Source: an uncultured Prevotella sp. (lineage in GTDB: Bacteria; Bacteroidota; Bacteroidia; Bacteroidales; Bacteroidaceae). From it: 34,781 bases of DNA. Position numbers and translations under genes: made by a program. Position 1 is the stretch's first letter. Every line of letters starts with the position of its first letter. The stretch covers positions 1-34,781 of the forward strand of contig OMXO01000024.1 in NCBI GenBank assembly GCA_900315035.1, written 5' to 3'. The notes beneath the pieces are model-generated. The model was not told where the DNA came from. It ran no database searches and was given only the letters and a program-made list of their open reading frames with translations. Below, piece by piece: positions 5,964 through 14,927 of the stretch.

Positions 5964-5994
5964 AGAAAGGCTTGTCGAAATGACAAGCCTTTCT
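5964..5994. terminator. Strong bidirectional hairpin terminator
   Basis: Perfect 13-bp stem (5964-5976 with 5982-5994, AGAAAGGCTTGTC and complement) with a 5-nt GAAAT loop, between the convergent DUF1015 gene and the end of the VgrG operon at 6013. Confidence 0.85.
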
Positions 5995-6012: not shown

Positions 6013-6792
6013 TTATTCCTCATAGCCGGGACGGAAACTGGATACCCCATCGTACTCCTTAGGCTTATTCTTCTTGAGATTATAACGAGCATAAGCCTCG
6101 TCGATCTCCCTTAATTTCTCGTCGCGCAGAGAGTCGGCCCGATTCTTGAACTCCTTATACATGCGCTCAAGATCGTCTTTCACCGTGTTGGCATCCTCAA
6201 TGTTAGCACTGTTAATCATAGTGACTAGCACCTCGCTATTACGTGCACAGACAGCATCTAAACGGAGCATGCACTCAGCGTGGAGACTCTTGACGGTGGT
6301 AGTCAGCAGATCGCGACGATCTTTATCGACATCGGGCATCGTATAGAGCAGGAAGACACTCTCGGGAGCGGCATCCGTACTGGCATCAGGAATCTTGTTG
6401 AACTCTTCTGCAGAGACCTGCATGTTTTGTTGACTATTTTCATTGTCTTCTTCAGGCTCGTCGTAATCCTTGTTCTTATGATCTACGCGTGAGAATTTTC
6501 CCTGTTTGATGGTCAACTTGAACTCCGGGTGAGCCTCAGCAATGCCTGCGATAATCTTGTGCAACAATTCCGGATACTTGGGGTAAACGATCATCTGATA
6601 CTCGTTGGCTATCGCCACATCGGCCACCTCTTCGATATCATACGACATGCCATCATCGTCGATGACGACAGGCATCAGAGCAGCCACATCCGACTTGATG
6701 CAAAGATTGGAATATTTGAAGCCCAGTAACACTGTGTAGCCATTCATCTGCTGGCTTACATCAGATAATTGTGTATAAAGTAATGTGTTCAT
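6013..6792 (-). CDS. Ribosome-recycling-factor-like protein, last gene of the VgrG operon
   Basis: 259 residues, no signal peptide or membrane segment. I found no exact family, but the pattern follows ribosome recycling factor (RRF). Residues 40-80 (MPVVIDDDG...VADVAIANEYQMIVYP) line up with the RRF segment that runs from the conserved valine-rich strand through AxVxV to the IxP strand. Residues 150-233 (MPDVDKDRRDLL followed by three long amphipathic helices) line up with the RRF PPLTEERRKDL helical region. Between them, about 96-148 is an acidic, Gln/Asn-rich insert (DEPEEDNENSQQ) absent from RRF. The N-terminal helix of RRF is shortened or divergent. The gene follows the needle-like gene after 18 nt, so it is translated with the spike operon. 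The role is unknown: an adaptor, an immunity or cargo protein, or a divergent translation factor are all possible. The fold assignment is an inference made by eye. Confidence 0.6.
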   Translation of the reverse strand: MNTLLYTQLSDVSQQMNGYTVLLGFKYSNLCIKSDVAALMPVVIDDDGMSYDIEEVADVAIANEYQMIVYPKYPELLHKIIAGIAEAHPEFKLTIKQGKFSRVDHKNKDYDEPEEDNENSQQNMQVSAEEFNKIPDASTDAAPESVFLLYTMPDVDKDRRDLLTTTVKSLHAECMLRLDAVCARNSEVLVTMINSANIEDANTVKDDLERMYKEFKNRADSLRDEKLREIDEAYARYNLKKNKPKEYDGVSSFRPGYEE

Positions 6793-6810
6793 TGTGATGA
6801 TTCAATCTAA

Positions 6811-8598
6811 TTATTGTCCACTTGTCTCTTCTTTGAGTTTCGCACTCAGGCTGCCACTTGCGCCTGCAGCGGGAGCAGCCATGCCGTCGCTGATGTTTGG
6901 CGAGGTAAACGCCGTTTTGACGTTGAGAGTATCGATGGTGGCCTGAGGCGCCTTGAGGGCACCTTTCACCTCGGTGTTGGCGTTGACGGTGGTCTCGCCA
7001 TACACCTGCGTCTTACTGCCAGCAAGTGCGGCATTGCCATCGGCCAGCTGGAGCACAGCCTTGCCGTCGCCCTGCTGAGCCTCCATCACGGTATCGGCAA
7101 AGATACCCACGCTGTGGGAGGCTGCCTGCAGCAGTTTGCTTCTGACATCCTTCGACTGGGCGCCTACGAACATCTTCTCGGCAACGAGTGACATCGCGCT
7201 GCCCCCGAGGAGTTTTCCCTCGGCATCAACAGCAGCGATAGCCGTCTGCTCACTATTCACGGCAAGTGTCTTCGACTTCACGATGATGTCGCCCTCGGCG
7301 GGTGCATCCTCAGGACCTTCGTTAGACATCTCGATGGTCTTGGCGCGGAGCTTGATCTTACTTTCGGGCGCAAGTTGTGTTTCCTTCAGTTCTTCGTTGG
7401 CCAGTTCATAGTCGGCAGCTTCGACGGTGACGCTGTTTGACTTCAGCATGAAATCACCTCCTGCCTGATAGGTGGCAGCGGTCAGGGTGCCGTCGTCTGC
7501 ATACTGCTGATCTTTCTCGCCAGTCGTGCTGACCTCTACATGCATGGCCTGCAGACTGATCTTTCCTTCAGGTTTCAGTTGTCCGTCTTCCTCTAAGGAG
7601 GCAACGCTCACCTGGTTAGCCAGCATTCTGATGCCCGATTCCTTGTTGTCACGCAGATTGCCTTCGCCATCGGCAGAGACGAGGTTGATAGCCTCACTGG
7701 TAATCATCACCGCAGCAGCCGTCGTCTGTTGCTTGAAATCGTCGCCCTTCACAATGGTAGCCTTCGTATCGTTCAGACACTTCAGTTGGCGGTTCACTTC
7801 TGCCAACATGGAAATGGTGTCGGTATAGCTGGCTGTAATCTCTGCCAGCGAACCAGAGGCATCGACGACCTGCTTGTTCAGCCAGTCGATATCTTCATAG
7901 TTGGCATGTATGGCATCATCGTCAACAAGCAGTTTGTCGCGATCGTCCATCAGTTCCTGCAAGTTCTTAGAGACCTCCTTGAACGATTCTTTCTGTAATG
8001 ATATTTCGTTCTTTAATCGCTGCTTCTGCGACTCCAGATTGGCTATCAGACTGTCGATCTGCTGTTCGCGACTCTCTGCAGTCATGGTGGCAGAGACATC
8101 AACAGTCTTGTCGGCATGAATGAAAACGCCACAGGAGCCATTGGGTACAGTCGGAGTGGCAAAGGTGCCCTGGGCATCCTCGCTATGCACGATGATGCTG
8201 CGTGCCTGACTGACGACTTCAGATAGCGGTCCTACGACATGTTCCCGCCCATCGTCGCCAGGATCTTCTGCCACCTGACGGATACGCGGTGCACGCGTCT
8301 CTACCTGTCCGTAGTCGCCTGCGGCCTGCAGTCCGATGTGAGTGCCTCGCACTGTGATTACTGAAGGTCCATCGAGCAGCATGCCTTCGCTATCCACATT
8401 ACCGATAATAATCTCGGGAGCAGAGAGAATCAGGCGTTCTTTGTCACGCTCGAATCGGCCTTTCTTCAGTTGATTGCTGATCTCTGCGGTCAAGTTCCGC
8501 ATCTCAGCCTTGCATTGTCTCATTTCAGCAAGGTCGCTTTCGACGCTTGCCTCAAATGCGGAGAGTCGTTTCTCCCATTCTTCAAATATGTAGTCCAT
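6811..8598 (-). CDS. Needle-like protein with coiled coils and beta-repeats, VgrG partner
   Basis: 595 residues, no signal peptide. Residues 8-50 and 172-280 are predicted coiled coil by eye (heptads rich in Leu, Glu, Lys, Gln). Residues 55-165 and 290-560 are built of short repeated strands with alternating hydrophobic residues (ISLQAMHVEVS, IKLRAKTIEMS, DIIVKSKTLAVNS, SLVAEKMFVGA), like the beta-helical needle at the C-terminus of gp5/VgrG proteins. The end (TIDTLNVKTAFTSPNISDGMAAP) resembles phage-tail or spike proteins. The gene begins 27 nt after vgrG in the same operon. I infer a structural or tip component that extends or caps the spike; no enzymatic motif is seen. A PAAR motif is not visible. 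Confidence 0.6.
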   Translation of the reverse strand: MDYIFEEWEKRLSAFEASVESDLAEMRQCKAEMRNLTAEISNQLKKGRFERDKERLILSAPEIIIGNVDSEGMLLDGPSVITVRGTHIGLQAAGDYGQVETRAPRIRQVAEDPGDDGREHVVGPLSEVVSQARSIIVHSEDAQGTFATPTVPNGSCGVFIHADKTVDVSATMTAESREQQIDSLIANLESQKQRLKNEISLQKESFKEVSKNLQELMDDRDKLLVDDDAIHANYEDIDWLNKQVVDASGSLAEITASYTDTISMLAEVNRQLKCLNDTKATIVKGDDFKQQTTAAAVMITSEAINLVSADGEGNLRDNKESGIRMLANQVSVASLEEDGQLKPEGKISLQAMHVEVSTTGEKDQQYADDGTLTAATYQAGGDFMLKSNSVTVEAADYELANEELKETQLAPESKIKLRAKTIEMSNEGPEDAPAEGDIIVKSKTLAVNSEQTAIAAVDAEGKLLGGSAMSLVAEKMFVGAQSKDVRSKLLQAASHSVGIFADTVMEAQQGDGKAVLQLADGNAALAGSKTQVYGETTVNANTEVKGALKAPQATIDTLNVKTAFTSPNISDGMAAPAAGASGSLSAKLKEETSGQ

Positions 8599-8625
8599 AT
8601 ATGATTCAGTACTTTAAAAGTTAGA

Positions 8626-11600
8626 CTATTTGATGGTGTACAACACTTCTATCAGCCTGTTGATATTGTTCTGGTTATTGGCTTCCTCAGACTGGAGCCC
8701 ATCCTTCACCATATTCAGCGTATAGTTAGGATTGTCGGAGAAGAGAATCTGTCCGCCCTCGCTGTTCCAGGGCTTAGACTTCTCCCACCATCTCTCATTG
8801 CGGAAGTGCTCATTCCAGTACTTATCGGCAAAGCTCATGATTAACTTCCTGTTGAAGTTGTTCTGGAAGTAGCGGTTCATATTCTGCATGAAGCGATTCC
8901 AGTAGTAGTCTTTCGTCAGTCTCTCCTTCGTAATATGCTCCTTGCCATATCCTACGTAAATATACTTGTCGTTCTTGTTCTGTTCACTGTTGTCGACCTG
9001 GAGGATGAAGAGGGCTGCCAGTTCGCGTTTCGTCTCCTTCAGATTGTTGAAGAAGATATCTTTAGGACTTACAACCGTCAAGAAATTCTCCTCTGGGAGT
9101 CCATTAATATCCTTGTAGCAATCAAGCCACTTACGCTTGAACTCCATGTCAGCGAATACATGCGCAAACGCATCTTTGACCCATGCTACCTGATGATCTT
9201 CAGGCAGAGGCTCTGCACCATTCTGCCCAGCGTGCTCCAGGAAGTTATCAAGCGACTCGATCTTCATCATATGTCGCCTCAGGACGTAGAGGACTGAGGC
9301 GTAAACCTTGGCTAATTCTATCAACTCATTTTTATTTTTCTCTTTGATATTCGGTTTGAACCTATCATCAAATGCCTTGACAATCTTGTTGACATCCCAC
9401 TCTTCGTCCGCATCAGATCCGAAAGCCAGATTGATGACACTTGGAAGATCTATTATCTTCAGACGCCGCATGGCCTTTTCATGATATTTCATGTAGGCAT
9501 CGCGAGCTGTTTCCCAGAGTTGTTTGTAAGTCTCGGCGAAAGAGTCGAAGCCTGCATTGATACAGTTCACGTATTTGATCATGTTCTCATATACCAGGCA
9601 ATAGTCGTCGGGCTTAGCCTTTCTGTAACGGTCGTTCTTGATCATCGCCTTACCTTTTCCGGCTTCGAGCAGCATGTACTTGTGCGACTTGATACAGAGT
9701 GTTCCATCCACAGGTTTGAGGAAGGTCTGCATCAGGTAGCGGAAGAAAGTAATATCGGTAACGGGGAGCAGTTTAAATCCCTCCTTACCCAGTTCTGGGG
9801 CAGCTTCCAACAGAACTTCGTGACCAAAGGCATGGAACGATTCGCCTATGAAGTGTCCGAACCTGGAGAGGAAGTTCTTACCCTTGATCCATTCGTATTG
9901 CGGTTTGCCGATGCCTGTTCCGAGACCGATGTTTGTGCCCGATTCAATCGTCAACTTGTTACTGGCTTTGATTTCTACATTCTTACCGTCGATCTTGATG
10001 TCGCCATTGGGGGCAACGATGCTGATGCCGGTAAAGGCATTGAGGTTGACCTTTCCTAATGGAGAGTTGATGCTGATCGATCTGCCATTCGACGACATCG
10101 ATATTTCATAGAGTCCGAACCTGTCGCCGATATGGATACCGCCTGCCAGATCCTTTGCCTGTTTGGGCATGAGAAATGGCAAAGACGGGGCTCCCAGGCT
10201 CGAGATGAAATTGATAGACTTGGCGGGGCCGAGCAGATCGCCGATGAATTTCTTACTATCGTCGGGATCCTGGAAGGCGATATGATGTCCGTTAGGCGAG
10301 ACGAGTGCCATCGAACCCAGACCACGGAGGCTCATCTTACGATTCATGCGCTCTCGCGGATCGTTGGTGTTCTTGGAATAGAGCTGACCTACCACATAGG
10401 GGCGCTCCACATTGTCGTTGTCGAAATTCACGAGCACCTCATCGCCCACACGCGGTTCGTAATAGAAGCCGCCGCCTTCGGTAGCGATGGGGGTAGCTAC
10501 ACGTATCCAGGGTGAAGCCATCGCCTTGACCTTATCGTCGAATTTACCTTTGGCTTTCTCGAGAGAGGCTTCTTTTTCCTTGACGTCTTGTTCGGCTGCC
10601 TGCACCGCTGTCTGTTTCGCTCCGATAGCATCAGCCGTCTTTTTCACTTCTGCTTTCTTCTCTGCCAGAAGATCCCTTCCCGCAGACTGATTGGTAGATG
10701 CCTCCATCATATTAAGGAGTGCCACGATGCGCTCGATCTTCTTCTTGTTCGCGGCAATCTTCTTCTTGTTTTCCTCAATCTCGGGACTATAGTTGAAGAC
10801 AAGAGCTTCTTTTTCGACCTCATTCTCCGCTTTGTCGATAGCCTGCAGAGCGTCGTTGATAGCCTTCTCGTATTTCTCATTTTCGGTTTCGAGCAACCAG
10901 ATGTCTCCATCTTCATCCCAGAGGGCTTTCGCGCGCTTCTCACGTTCTTCGGGTGATAGTTTCTTCCACTCCTCCATGAGTTCCTGCTCTTTGAGTAGCA
11001 GACGGTATTCTTCTTCCAACTGAGCCAGTTCGTCTTTACTGCGCTGTCGCTGCTCTGTAGCCTGTTGCAGCGTGCTGGCTGCTTTCTCCAGTCGGTTTTT
11101 CTCTGCATCGCCAGTCGCCTGCCAGGGGAAGGAGATTCTTACGCGGCCTTGATATTTGGGATCGTCGCTTGCCACGATGAAAGCCGTCTGAGGTCCAGAC
11201 TTCCTGATGATAGAGACAGGCTGCACGGGTGGTATGAAGCATTGACGTCCCTCGTTGTCGTCATAGGATGGAATAGCATAAAACATCATCGAACGGATGT
11301 TGTCCGACTTCTCGTCAGCCTTTTTGCCATAGGTGTCATAGTTCTGCTTCCAAGCCTCTTCGGAATTCTGCACGATATGTATAATCACATAGCACTCGCT
11401 CGAACCAGCGATCCTAATCTTCTGTCCAAGTTTCAACGGCCTAACCATCGTGCCGAGATTCACACAGATGATCTGCTGTTGTTGGCGCTCCTCGTGAGTA
11501 CGGATATCGTTGAAATAATCGATCGTGGTCCAGCCCTTGGGCGAGAGTGTTCCGAACTGTACGATGCAATCGTCGCTATACTGTTCGCTCTTACCCTTCA

Positions 11601-12897
11601 GTGGCTTAAAGAAGTTGTTGCGTAATTTCTTATTGAGGTTATTCGATGCAATTCTTGACGTGAAAGCAGCTTGAACAGCCTCGGGGAACCCATATTGTGC
11701 GGCAGAGATGGCCAGATTGATGGGGCCGCCTTTCCTGTTGGCTGCCACCTTTTTCATGTATAACATGGTTTTGTGGATAGCTGACTGGTCACCGTCGCCA
11801 TACATCATCTCATGCGCCAGATCTGATGCCTTATCCTTATAGAGTGGGAATATGTACTCGTCGTTGGCATATTCAGAGTTATAAGATACGGTGTCTGTAA
11901 ATACACCATCAGGGTATGAACCTTCTTTCTTGATAGGCGTAAAGTTGAAGTGCTTGGGAGCACCTGTACCTTCTTTGACGCTATCGCGCGCATAGAGCTT
12001 GATCGATAATGGGGCTTCACCCACATCTTGTGTTGTCACCGATTCGAATTCATCGATCACGATGGGTTCACCACTATCAGGCAGACCGAGTGTCAGCTTA
12101 CCATCTTCGAAGAAGAAAAACTCACCACAGCGGTTTGACGTACGAACCATGAAATCGTAGAACGACTCGTTGTATTGAACCAGATAGGGATGGATGAACT
12201 CTGAAGGGATTGTTGCCACCATCGTCTGATTGGTCTTGGGATCCTTGAAAGTCAATTGACTTTCATATTTCAGGAACCGCATATCCGTCACAGAGGCCTC
12301 GATGAGCGATGTCTTCGAATCTTCCTGATAGTTGAAGTTACGGCACTCAGGCATCAGAATGCCGGAACCCAGTTTGCTGGCAACATAAGCCTTACTGTAC
12401 TTGTTGAGCGTCATCAGTTTGTCCATACTGAAGATGTTCAACTTCACATACATCAGCACACCGTCGGTATCACGTCTGAGTTGTGGCTTTACCTCGTGTA
12501 TAAAATAGTGCTGGGCAATCGTGAATTCCTGGAACTTGTCTTCTGACTTCAAGGCCTGCGGCGATTCACGTCTGACGGTCAGAGTCACCTCGCGCTGAAG
12601 CAATAGTGCGGAAACACCTTTCATCGATGGAGTTTCCAACGTGACAGTACCATTTGCATCTGGAACTTCCTGCATGAAGGTCAGCTCCGCCTCGATCTCA
12701 CCGGGCTGATAGATCTTGCGGTTCATCTTGATTCCAAGCAAGATGGCAGAGAACTTCTTATTGTTTTCTGTAAATGACAGACCAACCCCCTGTACAAATT
12801 TGAGCTGAGGGAGCGCTTCACTCATATTCGTGATGCTGTTTCCGAGCGTCAGTACATACGTGTATGACGCTGTATTCTCGATGATTCTATCTTCCAT
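8626..12897 (-). CDS. Giant VgrG-like spike protein with coiled-coil insertion in the OB fold
   Basis: 1423 residues, no signal peptide. Residues 1-560 correspond to the gp27-like part of VgrG (key segment HPYLVQYNESFYDFMVRTSNR at 236-256, followed by GEFFFFEDGKLTLGLP). The gp5-like OB fold starts at 577 (SDDPKYQGRVRISFPWQATGD) and resumes at 795 (SPWIRVATPIATEGGGFYYEPRVGDEVLVNF). Between them about 200 residues (597-793) of highly charged coiled coil are inserted. Residues 930-995 form the beta-prism-type needle repeats (SINSPLGKVNLNAFTGISIVAPNGDIKIDGKNVEIKASNKLTI). Residues 1000-1423 are a mainly helical extension of unknown function, a possible effector or adaptor region. VgrG trimers form the puncturing tip of type VI secretion and related contractile systems. 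The gene lies 21 nt after the STAS gene. No tube, sheath or baseplate gene is in the window. Confidence 0.88.
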   Translation of the reverse strand: MEDRIIENTASYTYVLTLGNSITNMSEALPQLKFVQGVGLSFTENNKKFSAILLGIKMNRKIYQPGEIEAELTFMQEVPDANGTVTLETPSMKGVSALLLQREVTLTVRRESPQALKSEDKFQEFTIAQHYFIHEVKPQLRRDTDGVLMYVKLNIFSMDKLMTLNKYSKAYVASKLGSGILMPECRNFNYQEDSKTSLIEASVTDMRFLKYESQLTFKDPKTNQTMVATIPSEFIHPYLVQYNESFYDFMVRTSNRCGEFFFFEDGKLTLGLPDSGEPIVIDEFESVTTQDVGEAPLSIKLYARDSVKEGTGAPKHFNFTPIKKEGSYPDGVFTDTVSYNSEYANDEYIFPLYKDKASDLAHEMMYGDGDQSAIHKTMLYMKKVAANRKGGPINLAISAAQYGFPEAVQAAFTSRIASNNLNKKLRNNFFKPLKGKSEQYSDDCIVQFGTLSPKGWTTIDYFNDIRTHEERQQQQIICVNLGTMVRPLKLGQKIRIAGSSECYVIIHIVQNSEEAWKQNYDTYGKKADEKSDNIRSMMFYAIPSYDDNEGRQCFIPPVQPVSIIRKSGPQTAFIVASDDPKYQGRVRISFPWQATGDAEKNRLEKAASTLQQATEQRQRSKDELAQLEEEYRLLLKEQELMEEWKKLSPEEREKRAKALWDEDGDIWLLETENEKYEKAINDALQAIDKAENEVEKEALVFNYSPEIEENKKKIAANKKKIERIVALLNMMEASTNQSAGRDLLAEKKAEVKKTADAIGAKQTAVQAAEQDVKEKEASLEKAKGKFDDKVKAMASPWIRVATPIATEGGGFYYEPRVGDEVLVNFDNDNVERPYVVGQLYSKNTNDPRERMNRKMSLRGLGSMALVSPNGHHIAFQDPDDSKKFIGDLLGPAKSINFISSLGAPSLPFLMPKQAKDLAGGIHIGDRFGLYEISMSSNGRSISINSPLGKVNLNAFTGISIVAPNGDIKIDGKNVEIKASNKLTIESGTNIGLGTGIGKPQYEWIKGKNFLSRFGHFIGESFHAFGHEVLLEAAPELGKEGFKLLPVTDITFFRYLMQTFLKPVDGTLCIKSHKYMLLEAGKGKAMIKNDRYRKAKPDDYCLVYENMIKYVNCINAGFDSFAETYKQLWETARDAYMKYHEKAMRRLKIIDLPSVINLAFGSDADEEWDVNKIVKAFDDRFKPNIKEKNKNELIELAKVYASVLYVLRRHMMKIESLDNFLEHAGQNGAEPLPEDHQVAWVKDAFAHVFADMEFKRKWLDCYKDINGLPEENFLTVVSPKDIFFNNLKETKRELAALFILQVDNSEQNKNDKYIYVGYGKEHITKERLTKDYYWNRFMQNMNRYFQNNFNRKLIMSFADKYWNEHFRNERWWEKSKPWNSEGGQILFSDNPNYTLNMVKDGLQSEEANNQNNINRLIEVLYTIK

Positions 12898-12918
12898 AAG
12901 ATTGTTGTTTGGAGAAGG

Positions 12919-13224
12919 TTATTCATATTCAAACATACTGGATAGTCCAGTCATGTGTAAAGTCTGACGCACGAAGTCGCAGGGGTTCTTAATCACCACG
13001 CGTGCTTCTCGAGTCCTGGCATTCTTTGCAATGGCAAAAAACAGTCGCAGACCGCTGGATGCAATATACTCAAGATCAGTGCAATCGAGAACGATATTCT
13101 CGAGATCCTCATCTTCTGCTATGTCAAGCAGACCTTCTTCCACATCAGGTACACTCATAGAATCAAGTTTGCCACTTAATATGGCTACGGCTGTCGCCTC
13201 TTCCTTTTGAATTTTGATATCCAT
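12919..13224 (-). CDS. STAS-domain protein (anti-anti-sigma factor-like)
   Basis: 101 residues, a single STAS domain of the SpoIIAA/RsbV type. The phosphorylation loop is DLEYIASSGLRLF (50-62); by comparison with SpoIIAA the second serine, S57, would be the phosphoacceptor. Both serines and the following Gly-Leu are intact, so the switch should work. In partner-switching systems the unphosphorylated STAS protein binds a HATPase kinase or another target and a SpoIIE-type phosphatase restores it. That phosphatase is encoded 11 nt upstream, but no RsbW-like kinase is seen here. It directly precedes the VgrG gene (21 nt). Confidence 0.9.
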   Translation of the reverse strand: MDIKIQKEEATAVAILSGKLDSMSVPDVEEGLLDIAEDEDLENIVLDCTDLEYIASSGLRLFFAIAKNARTREARVVIKNPCDFVRQTLHMTGLSSMFEYE

Positions 13225-13235
13225 ATCTTTCAGTT

Positions 13236-14822
13236 TTAGTTGGTTATTTCTTTTCCATAATAGCTAACGGCTAGCATCGTCAGATCGTCGCTTTGTTCTG
13301 CGTCGCCGGTAAATGCATGTAGCGACTCAATCATCTGTTCGATGAGAGGACGGGGCTGCAGATGTCCACTGCTTACGGCCTGATGAGCTGTCTCCATGAT
13401 GCGCTTTCTGCCAAACATCTGAACCTCTTTAGCCTCACTGTCCATCCCTTCCGACAATCCATCGGTGAAGAGCATAAGTGTCGTGCCGGGCGTCATCTCT
13501 ACCGCTTGTGCTTCATAGATGACAGGCATCAGTCCCACAATTGCGTTAGTCTTCACCGGGAGTTCTGTGACGCCGTTAGGATTAACGACAAGAGGTGCTT
13601 CATGTCCACCGTTACAATAGTCGAGGTGACCTGTATTCAGGTGAAGAACCCCGACAAAAAGCGTCACGAACATGTTGGAGTTATTACCATCCATCATGGC
13701 CTCGTTGATGCCTTTGAGAATTTCATCGGGTTTTATTTCGCGTGAAGCAAACGAACGGAACAGATTCTTGGTAACAGTCATATACAATGCTGCAGGAACA
13801 CCCTTCCCCGAGACGTCACCGATACAGAAGAAGAGTTTCTCATCGCGGATAAAGAAGTCGAATAGATCGCCGCCTACGGCCTTTGCGGGTTTCATGAAGC
13901 CATAGATATCGATGTCTTTGCGCTTAGGGTAGGGCGGGAACTTCTTAGGTATCATCGACATCTGTATGTTGCGCGCAATGTTCAGCTCTTTCTCCATCGC
14001 AGCCTTCGAGGCGGTCGTTGTCTTCAGTTCTTCAATGTAATTCGAAAGCGAGTGCTGCATATCCTGAAAAGAATCGTGCAACAATCCGATCTCATCGTGA
14101 CTCTTGATGTCGGGCAAGGGAACATCGAAGTTTCCCTTCGCAATCTCCTGGGTAGAAACGGCGAATTTGGTCAGTGGTCCTGTCAGGTGACGAATAGTGA
14201 CGACACAACCCAAGAATATTACCATCAGACTGACGGCTATCATCACGAGAAGCATGATGCCTACAAGTCTTCCTGTGCCGTAATACAGTTCTTGGGGGAT
14301 GACGACGAACAGCGTATATGGTGTGTTACAGATAGATGTATAGAAAACCGCCTTATCTGCATCATTGATTGTCAAAAACGTCATGCTGATGCCGAAATGA
14401 GTCACTGAATCCGGGGCGTGTAAGGTCTGGAACTGTGGGAAACTGTCGCTCTGGATATTGGTGGAGTCAGAAACAACGATGTATTTCCCATTGCCATCAG
14501 CAATGAAACTGTAAACATCGTCGGACTCAAAGAAGGGATTCTTGTAATTGTTGTTGACCCGCTCATCGGCATCTCTCAGGATGTCTGCCACCTGAGTCAG
14601 ATCCTCGGTATCGATGGTCTTCATCTTGTCAGCAACTGTTTCTTTCGTATGTAGCAGGATTTCCTGATAGAGAATCTCTTCCATCTTAGTCAACGACGAG
14701 TTGACCACCTTATATATAATAATAGAGAGTATTCCCATCACAATCCAAACAGCCAGCACAATCTCCCATGCTAACTTCCTGGAAAAACTTTTCCGCTTGG
14801 ATAATTTGGTATAGTTACTCAT
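13236..14822 (-). CDS. Membrane-bound SpoIIE/RsbU-type PP2C phosphatase with HAMP domain
   Basis: 528 residues. Membrane segments at about 19-39 and 184-208 enclose a 145-residue extracytoplasmic sensor region that looks PAS/dCache-like (YSFIADGNGKYIVVSDS). A HAMP linker (about 209-262, ending DEIGLLHDSFQDM) and a short coiled coil (264-290) lead into a SpoIIE PP2C domain. Metal-binding motifs GGDLFD (317-322), GDVSGKG (335-341), FTDGLSEG (452-459) and SDDLTML (511-517) are all intact, so the enzyme is probably active. Substrate: very probably the STAS protein encoded next. It is the first gene of the spike operon, behind its own promoter, so an envelope signal may control the downstream spike genes or their activity. 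Confidence 0.93.
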   Translation of the reverse strand: MSNYTKLSKRKSFSRKLAWEIVLAVWIVMGILSIIIYKVVNSSLTKMEEILYQEILLHTKETVADKMKTIDTEDLTQVADILRDADERVNNNYKNPFFESDDVYSFIADGNGKYIVVSDSTNIQSDSFPQFQTLHAPDSVTHFGISMTFLTINDADKAVFYTSICNTPYTLFVVIPQELYYGTGRLVGIMLLVMIAVSLMVIFLGCVVTIRHLTGPLTKFAVSTQEIAKGNFDVPLPDIKSHDEIGLLHDSFQDMQHSLSNYIEELKTTTASKAAMEKELNIARNIQMSMIPKKFPPYPKRKDIDIYGFMKPAKAVGGDLFDFFIRDEKLFFCIGDVSGKGVPAALYMTVTKNLFRSFASREIKPDEILKGINEAMMDGNNSNMFVTLFVGVLHLNTGHLDYCNGGHEAPLVVNPNGVTELPVKTNAIVGLMPVIYEAQAVEMTPGTTLMLFTDGLSEGMDSEAKEVQMFGRKRIMETAHQAVSSGHLQPRPLIEQMIESLHAFTGDAEQSDDLTMLAVSYYGKEITN

Positions 14823-14841: not shown

Positions 14842-14872
14842 CAAAAATAACTAAAAAATTCGAAACAGCCAA
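14842..14872 (-). promoter_or_regulatory. Promoter of the phosphatase-STAS-VgrG operon
   Basis: On the minus strand, TATTTTTG (plus 14842-14849) with GTTG at the upstream position (plus 14870-14873), spacing 20 nt. The upstream box is weaker than the consensus TTTG. It is 20 nt before the phosphatase start codon. No further promoter was seen in the four gene junctions downstream. Confidence 0.55.
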
Positions 14873-14894: not shown

Positions 14895-14927
14895 CAAAAA
14901 AAGAAGAGAATCAAATGATTCTCTTCT
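14895..14927 (-). terminator. Intrinsic terminator of tRNA-Ser
   Basis: Perfect 12-bp inverted repeat (14902-14913 with 14916-14927). On the minus strand it is followed by a run of seven T (plus 14895-14901). It lies 24 nt past the tRNA 3' end and also separates the tRNA from the phosphatase operon. Confidence 0.9.

Follow-up and report, generated by a model that had tools for sequence, protein, structure and literature searches.

The window, which is the whole stretch of DNA that was analysed (34,781 nucleotides), is contig C143 of the draft genome of an uncultured Prevotella sp. (3.41 Mb, 172 contigs, 91.7% complete), hereafter the source genome. ORF calling identified an operon of five minus-strand genes in the window, with successive gaps of 11, 21, 27 and 18 nt. 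An earlier note on this DNA, made from the sequence alone, had given the same layout, and the ORF coordinates reproduced it exactly. The gene identities proposed in that note were supported by Pfam for the HAMP-SpoIIE phosphatase, the STAS protein and the VgrG OB domain, while the RRF assignment obtained only a match below the family cut-off. The genes and the sequence elements around them are as follows.

13236..14822, minus strand: HAMP-SpoIIE (PP2C-type) membrane serine phosphatase, 528 aa (Pfam SpoIIE 1.9e-47, HAMP 1.1e-11)
12919..13224, minus strand: STAS switch protein, 101 aa (Pfam STAS 2.3e-17; TIGR00377 1.2e-20, over cut-off)
8626..12897, minus strand: VgrG-type spike protein, 1423 aa (Phage_base_V/VgrG OB domain 2e-14, over cut-off)
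6811..8598, minus strand: needle-like protein, 595 aa (homologues in the source genome, alignment, islands)
6013..6792, minus strand: RRF-fold protein, 259 aa (Pfam RRF 4.6e-4, below family cut-off)
14842..14849, minus strand: Bacteroidetes-type -7 element TATTTTTG upstream of the operon (consensus match only)
12930..12937, minus strand: candidate internal -7 element at the 3' end of the STAS gene (consensus match only)
About 5965..5993, minus strand: hairpin directly downstream of the operon and its RRF-like gene (found by eye; absent from the terminator-scan list)
14902..14927, minus strand: terminator-like hairpin separating tRNA-Ser from the operon (terminator scan)

The motif TAnnTTTG, which we take to be the Bacteroidetes-type -7 promoter motif, begins 27 nt 5' of the phosphatase start codon at the front of the operon and 40 nt 5' of that of vgrG at the internal site. 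Both elements have a one-mismatch TTTG 20 nt farther upstream. Judged by sequence, the internal element matches about as well as the one at the front, and vgrG may have a promoter inside the operon. The window contains 23 TAnnTTTG motifs against 13.2 expected (3/100 shuffles reach 23), and because the motif is so frequent single matches carry little weight. The earlier note had described closely spaced genes in which it could see no internal promoter; the spacing stands, but the absence of a promoter is not secure given the promoter-like motif between STAS and vgrG. The terminator scan of the window generated 9 candidates versus 8.2 in shuffles, which is no excess.

The phosphatase has hydrophobic segments starting at residues 16 and 182, and the stretch of ~145 residues between them is presumed to be periplasmic. 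All four PP2C-type motif patterns are present (4/4). S56 of the STAS protein, two positions ahead of the G in SSGLR, is presumed to be the phospho-acceptor, by comparison with the positions that we take to be the phosphorylated sites of SpoIIAA and RsbV. The Pfam scan identified no HATPase_c_2 kinase of the RsbW type among the five genes of the operon.

The NCBIfam VgrG models match the window VgrG below their cut-offs (TIGR01646 1.6e-19). Further VgrG matches were found on three contigs of the source genome, C124, C102 and C94. In the alignment a long insertion in the OB region is shared by the VgrG proteins of the window and C124 and is absent from those of C94 and C102. The C124 VgrG is split into two same-strand ORFs (L026 12722-14197 and 14271-17048) by either a frame break or an assembly error. 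Homologues of the needle-like protein in sister islands of the source genome are 31-60% identical. The 259-aa protein is probably a repurposed ribosome recycling factor fold. It has the same two-domain fold as ribosome recycling factor, for which a separate housekeeping gene was found at C71, but the key arginines of the housekeeping copy are replaced in the T6SS copies. None of 86 T6SS copies has R at housekeeping positions 28, 30, 33 or 131, 78/86 have D or E at position 131, and 2/86 have R at position 134. We take these to be conserved arginines with roles in the ribosomal factor.

The earlier note considered the lack of sheath, tube and kinase genes part of the puzzle. All three were found outside the window. 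A single TssC sheath gene was identified at C80:16213-17487 using PF17541 (337.8 bits, cut-off 25; 7.8e-101); Pfam VipB (PF05943), also used as a sheath probe, had no match in the source genome. TssD (Hcp, PF17642) adjoins VgrG at C102 and C124 with 40.8 and 35.8 bits, respectively (cut-off 25.8). HATPase_c_2 matches over the cut-off occur on C67, C53, C153, C27, C103 and C83. The core locus at C140 contains gp25/TssE over the cut-off and TssK matches below it. A 573-aa gene of this locus has a homologue in the T6SS locus of L054 and no family match, and was taken as a candidate TssF by position. PADLOC produced only weak scattered matches, the best (9.1e-5) to a coiled-coil model.

The C140 core locus (L128 1132-11859) and that of L054 (13541-19804) also encode a ThiF/E1-like protein (2.2e-51), a protein of 105 aa with weak similarity to ubiquitin/SUMO or YukD (0.01), one with a weak match to E2 (0.0034) and one of 803 aa that matches prokaryotic RING below the cut-off (1.8e-5). 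A ubiquitin-like conjugation set within the core locus is possible. Alternatively, the 105-aa protein may be connected with the ubiquitin-like domain that has been proposed for TssN (PMC10781749).

RRF-like loci were found at six places in the source genome, and in four of these STAS lies beside the cassette.

C143 (window): SpoIIE-STAS-VgrG-needle-RRF
C94: VgrG-needle-RRF-STAS
C80: needle-RRF-STAS-SpoIIE-DUF4280
C103: needle-RRF-STAS-kinase-SpoIIE
C124: TssD present, STAS absent
C19: needle and RRF only, on a 3.2-kb contig

STAS matches occur at seven places in the source genome, four of them in these cassettes. A different partner-switch cluster at C27 (L034 43-4785) contains STAS, an isoamylase-like gene, kinase and SpoIIE.

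The number of launchers was examined through TssC. Among 18 genomes with STAS islands, exactly one TssC match was found in 17 and none in 1. A family sample of 151 genomes, the source genome included, contained 12 with TssC and 4 with the RRF-like protein, one of them weakly (8.6e-4), and 4/4 genomes with the RRF-like protein are among the 12 with TssC. The three genomes with a strong RRF-like match had TssC scores of 338-346 bits, versus 419-759 bits in the other nine. In related loci, L054, L073 and L078 among them, the genes for TssC, TssD, X161, VgrG, the needle-like and the RRF-like protein are clustered; X161 is an Hcp-like protein (Hcp fold) that pairs with TssD in other cassettes. Because the RRF-like genomes all carry TssC and the strong ones have the lowest TssC scores, the best reading of these sequence comparisons is that cassette and launcher belong to a divergent T6SSiii lineage, in which one launcher would serve several spike cassettes.

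Recurrence of the arrangement was examined using an RRF-like alignment (A1), rather than STAS, as the bait. The alignment was built from five islands of the source genome, four with STAS. A scan of genome contigs with the RRF-like profile identified 84 relatives, and the best 80 of these gave 78 distinct loci (1.33 Mb), mostly from Prevotella/Prevotellaceae and also from Mediterranea, Parabacteroides, Caecibacteroides and Xylanibacter. Neighbourhoods were mapped with HMMs from proteins of the source genome, iterated once. An island was defined as a same-strand string with gaps of ≤400 nt that includes both VgrG and the needle-like gene. This produced 72 islands, loci of the source genome included, and the needle-like gene adjoins VgrG in all 72. 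Islands reaching an end of their sequence stretch (11/72) were dropped, leaving 61 uncut islands.

Among the 61 uncut VgrG-needle islands from the best 80 of 84 relatives and the source genome, 25 contain STAS, 32 contain TssD/X161, 4 contain neither and 0 contain both. The value of 25/61 is not a population estimate because the bait came from five islands of which four have STAS, and the best 80 of 84 matches were used. With cut islands included the numbers are 29, 35, 8 and 0 of 72. The Fisher P for the exclusion of STAS and TssD/X161, 2.7e-13, is descriptive only, the islands being related by descent. One exception lies outside the 61-island count: in L148 a single strand encodes STAS-TssD-X161-VgrG-needle-RRF, the first two genes lying 157 nt apart. 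In L046, TssD-X161 is divergent from the STAS string. The earlier note would have abandoned its proposal if the STAS/phosphatase pair and VgrG never occurred together elsewhere; they do co-occur in other genomes, as the 25/61 uncut islands attest. Outside the islands, the 78 loci (1.33 Mb) contain 2 STAS genes, one of which turned out to lie in a further VgrG island.

Four gene orders recur in the uncut islands. SpoIIE-STAS-VgrG-needle-RRF was found in 8, the window included, VgrG-needle-RRF-STAS-kinase-SpoIIE in 6, VgrG-needle-RRF-STAS-SpoIIE-DUF4280 in 4, and TssD-X161-VgrG-needle-RRF in 17. Median gaps are 24 nt for SpoIIE-STAS (n=10), 22 nt for STAS-VgrG (n=15) and 20 nt for RRF-STAS (n=20; some negative through the choice of ORF start). 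SpoIIE is present in 29/34 STAS islands, cut ones included, and 5/34 have no SpoIIE in the string; in one of the latter, L049, a divergent SpoIIE lies beside it.

A needle tree built by maximum likelihood from 66 rows (36 Hcp-type, 30 STAS), which leaves out rows with neither or an undecided state, needs 5 changes of state, all forced by supported branches. The association with STAS has therefore arisen or disappeared on more than one occasion. The groups are shown by a wider tree of 76 rows, where L069, whose VgrG is cut off, is mislabelled. STAS and needle distances are correlated (r 0.54, 33 pairs; 0/5000 permutations as high), and such co-variation is equally expected under plain co-inheritance. 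Among the 28 largest gene clusters within 4 kb of islands, no third family commonly accompanies STAS islands; the search yielded only small groups, for example an NMT1-like gene at 3 loci. We consider the genetic link of the phospho-switch genes to the VgrG cassette well supported.

The motifs expected of the switch proteins are kept in the islands. The four phosphatase motifs were found in 29, 27, 29 and 28 of 30 island SpoIIE proteins, respectively. The phospho-serine motif is present in 35/35 island STAS proteins and the serine is invariant in the STAS alignment. A C-terminal tail, NDVV-x-Y-x-M, is shared by 18/35 island STAS proteins using the strict pattern. It is missing from the window STAS, and the C80 protein has L in place of M. 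The tail around NNDVVCYxMKLGQ is strongly conserved, for example at L035 7025-7432, and is perhaps a docking motif. A search of the non-STAS ORFs of the loci for the tail gave 5 loose matches, none convincing.

Phosphatases of the window type that were scanned, those of L050 and L064, have dCache and HAMP domains. In these loci an NMT1-like periplasmic binding protein gene lies immediately 5' of the phosphatase gene (L050 694-1653, L064 434-1393), and its product perhaps supplies the signal. Kinase-bearing islands mostly have a short phosphatase (258-282 aa in 8/11 STAS-kinase-SpoIIE strings) with no clear hydrophobic pair. SpoIIE and the HATPase_c_2 kinase are also found fused in one sensor protein (L063 11649-14039, L064 11571-13718, L087 11019-13202). 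The fusion lies inside the island in L087 and L064 and ~1 kb downstream of it in L063.

A separate kinase gene is present in 12/34 STAS islands, cut ones included, and some sister islands carry all three genes in the order STAS-kinase-SpoIIE. The ATP-site patterns are kept in 11/12 island kinases, L067 missing one pattern. Among islands with STAS before VgrG, 13/14 lack a separate kinase gene, the window included. The island-kinase profile has matches in 19/19 genomes searched. Twelve chosen stretches around the more distant kinase matches, from genomes with STAS before VgrG, were inspected and none contained VgrG, needle or RRF-like genes. A STAS gene ~2 kb from a kinase gene was also seen in several other genomes (kinase stretches L134-L145).

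We propose, with a probability of roughly 0.5, that the window cassette carries its own serine-phosphorylation partner switch, which licenses its spike on a common launcher. The window would then be one of several spike cassettes (VgrG, needle-like and RRF-fold proteins) for a single T6SSiii-related launcher encoded elsewhere. The membrane phosphatase would sense an envelope or periplasmic cue and dephosphorylate S56 of STAS, and an RsbW-type kinase encoded elsewhere would phosphorylate it again. Unphosphorylated STAS would bind a partner, either the kinase or the VgrG/RRF-fold assembly, and its binding would license the spike for use on the common launcher. Both the mechanism and the direction of control are what we infer. 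The earlier note had proposed that an envelope signal sets the phosphorylation state of STAS and thereby controls how the spike is loaded, assembled or expressed; we regard its interpretation as supported in part. Set against our reading are the missing kinase of the window operon and of most islands with STAS before VgrG, the STAS islands with no SpoIIE in the string, L148 with its STAS and Hcp genes, and the promoter-like motif before vgrG. Going further, the launcher might pick among competing spikes by phosphorylation: cassettes without Hcp would carry their own sensor phosphatase and STAS, different envelope cues would arm different spikes, and the RRF-fold protein would be a spike assembly factor. 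We offer this extension tentatively.

Partner switches classically act on sigma factors, and SpoIIE, STAS and HATPase_c_2 are the usual sigma-control set. A classic transcriptional switch, in which free STAS captures an anti-sigma kinase and a sigma factor transcribes the spike operon and perhaps others, is a strong rival, and one that we regard as possible if rather doubtful. Kinase-type matches are present in the genome and the trio is encoded together in some sister islands, as this rival would have it, but the 28 largest clusters near the islands (not individually annotated) include no widespread extra family, and the -7 element of the operon looks like an ordinary Bacteroidetes-type one. 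We lean slightly towards post-transcriptional control, acting on the stability, assembly or loading of the spike, over sigma-factor control, because the switch is built into single cassettes, because no extra family commonly accompanies the STAS islands among those 28 clusters, and because in Bordetella the influence of BtrU/BtrV/BtrW on type III secretion extends past the transcript level (PMC7498569).

The split of the uncut islands into STAS only and TssD/X161 only suggests another role for STAS, that of a structural or chaperone part replacing TssD and the Hcp-fold X161, the Hcp pair of other cassettes, with phosphorylation regulating its role in assembly. The resemblance of X161 to Hcp and the tail conserved in 18/35 proteins point the same way. 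We think this unlikely, since the STAS and Hcp folds are unrelated, STAS lies either before VgrG or after RRF, L148 has STAS and Hcp genes together, and the window STAS has no tail. The signalling pair might merely share an operon with the spike genes; STAS and SpoIIE genes are found away from VgrG too, and a promoter-like element precedes vgrG. Recurrence on several branches with tight gaps, differing gene orders and co-variation makes such a chance neighbourhood quite improbable. Finally, VgrG-type OB domains are known from phages and other contractile systems, and the window has no sheath gene, as expected of a phage or extracellular contractile remnant. The clustering of TssC, TssD and X161 with the spike genes in related loci, the fit of the TssC of the source genome to the T6SSiii model and the housekeeping genes on the window contig leave this reading very little probability.

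T6SS control is usually viewed at the level of the whole machine. If a switch does act on single spike cassettes, a bacterium could choose which spike, hence which payload, to fire, which would help explain why several VgrG genes are kept alongside one sheath gene. In the RRF-fold protein, a fold known from a translation factor would have been put to a new use. Prevotella sp. ne3005, which carries L054, L087 and L095, is probably a cultured isolate; if so, experimental tests of licensing look feasible.

A search of the open-access literature (titles and abstract starts of the best matches, with most subscription papers and preprints outside its scope) found no description of STAS/SpoIIE with VgrG or of an RRF-fold T6SS protein. 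Several known systems are related in part. RsbU/RsbV/RsbW and SpoIIE/SpoIIAA/SpoIIAB are modules of a phosphatase, a phospho-serine STAS protein and a kinase. The window operon shares with them the phosphatase and the STAS protein with its phospho-serine, and some sister islands also share the kinase; it differs in its linkage to VgrG and in having no kinase in the same operon. PpkA/PppA control the proteobacterial T6SS through reversible threonine phosphorylation. Reversible phosphorylation controlling a T6SS is also what we propose, but the enzymes differ and PpkA/PppA act on the whole machine. The T6SS subtype iii of Bacteroidales (GA1-GA3) shares TssC (PF17541), TssD (PF17642), VgrG and a gp25-type TssE with the present system. 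It differs in that here an RRF-fold and a needle-like protein accompany each VgrG, STAS/SpoIIE are present, TssC scores are low, and the scanned C140 genes gave no TssN-TssR match. A T6SSiii paper (PMC4714493) nowhere uses the words STAS, anti-sigma or ribosome in its text. Type III secretion in Bordetella requires BtrU/BtrV/BtrW, and BtrV appears to act post-transcriptionally (PMC7498569). As in our proposal, a SpoIIE-family phosphatase, a STAS protein and a serine kinase are tied to a secretion machine, and they affect secretion itself. The Bordetella machine is a type III injectisome with one switch per machine and an ECF sigma factor in the locus, whereas here the window operon has no kinase, the spikes are of the T6SS type, and the switch lies in single cassettes.
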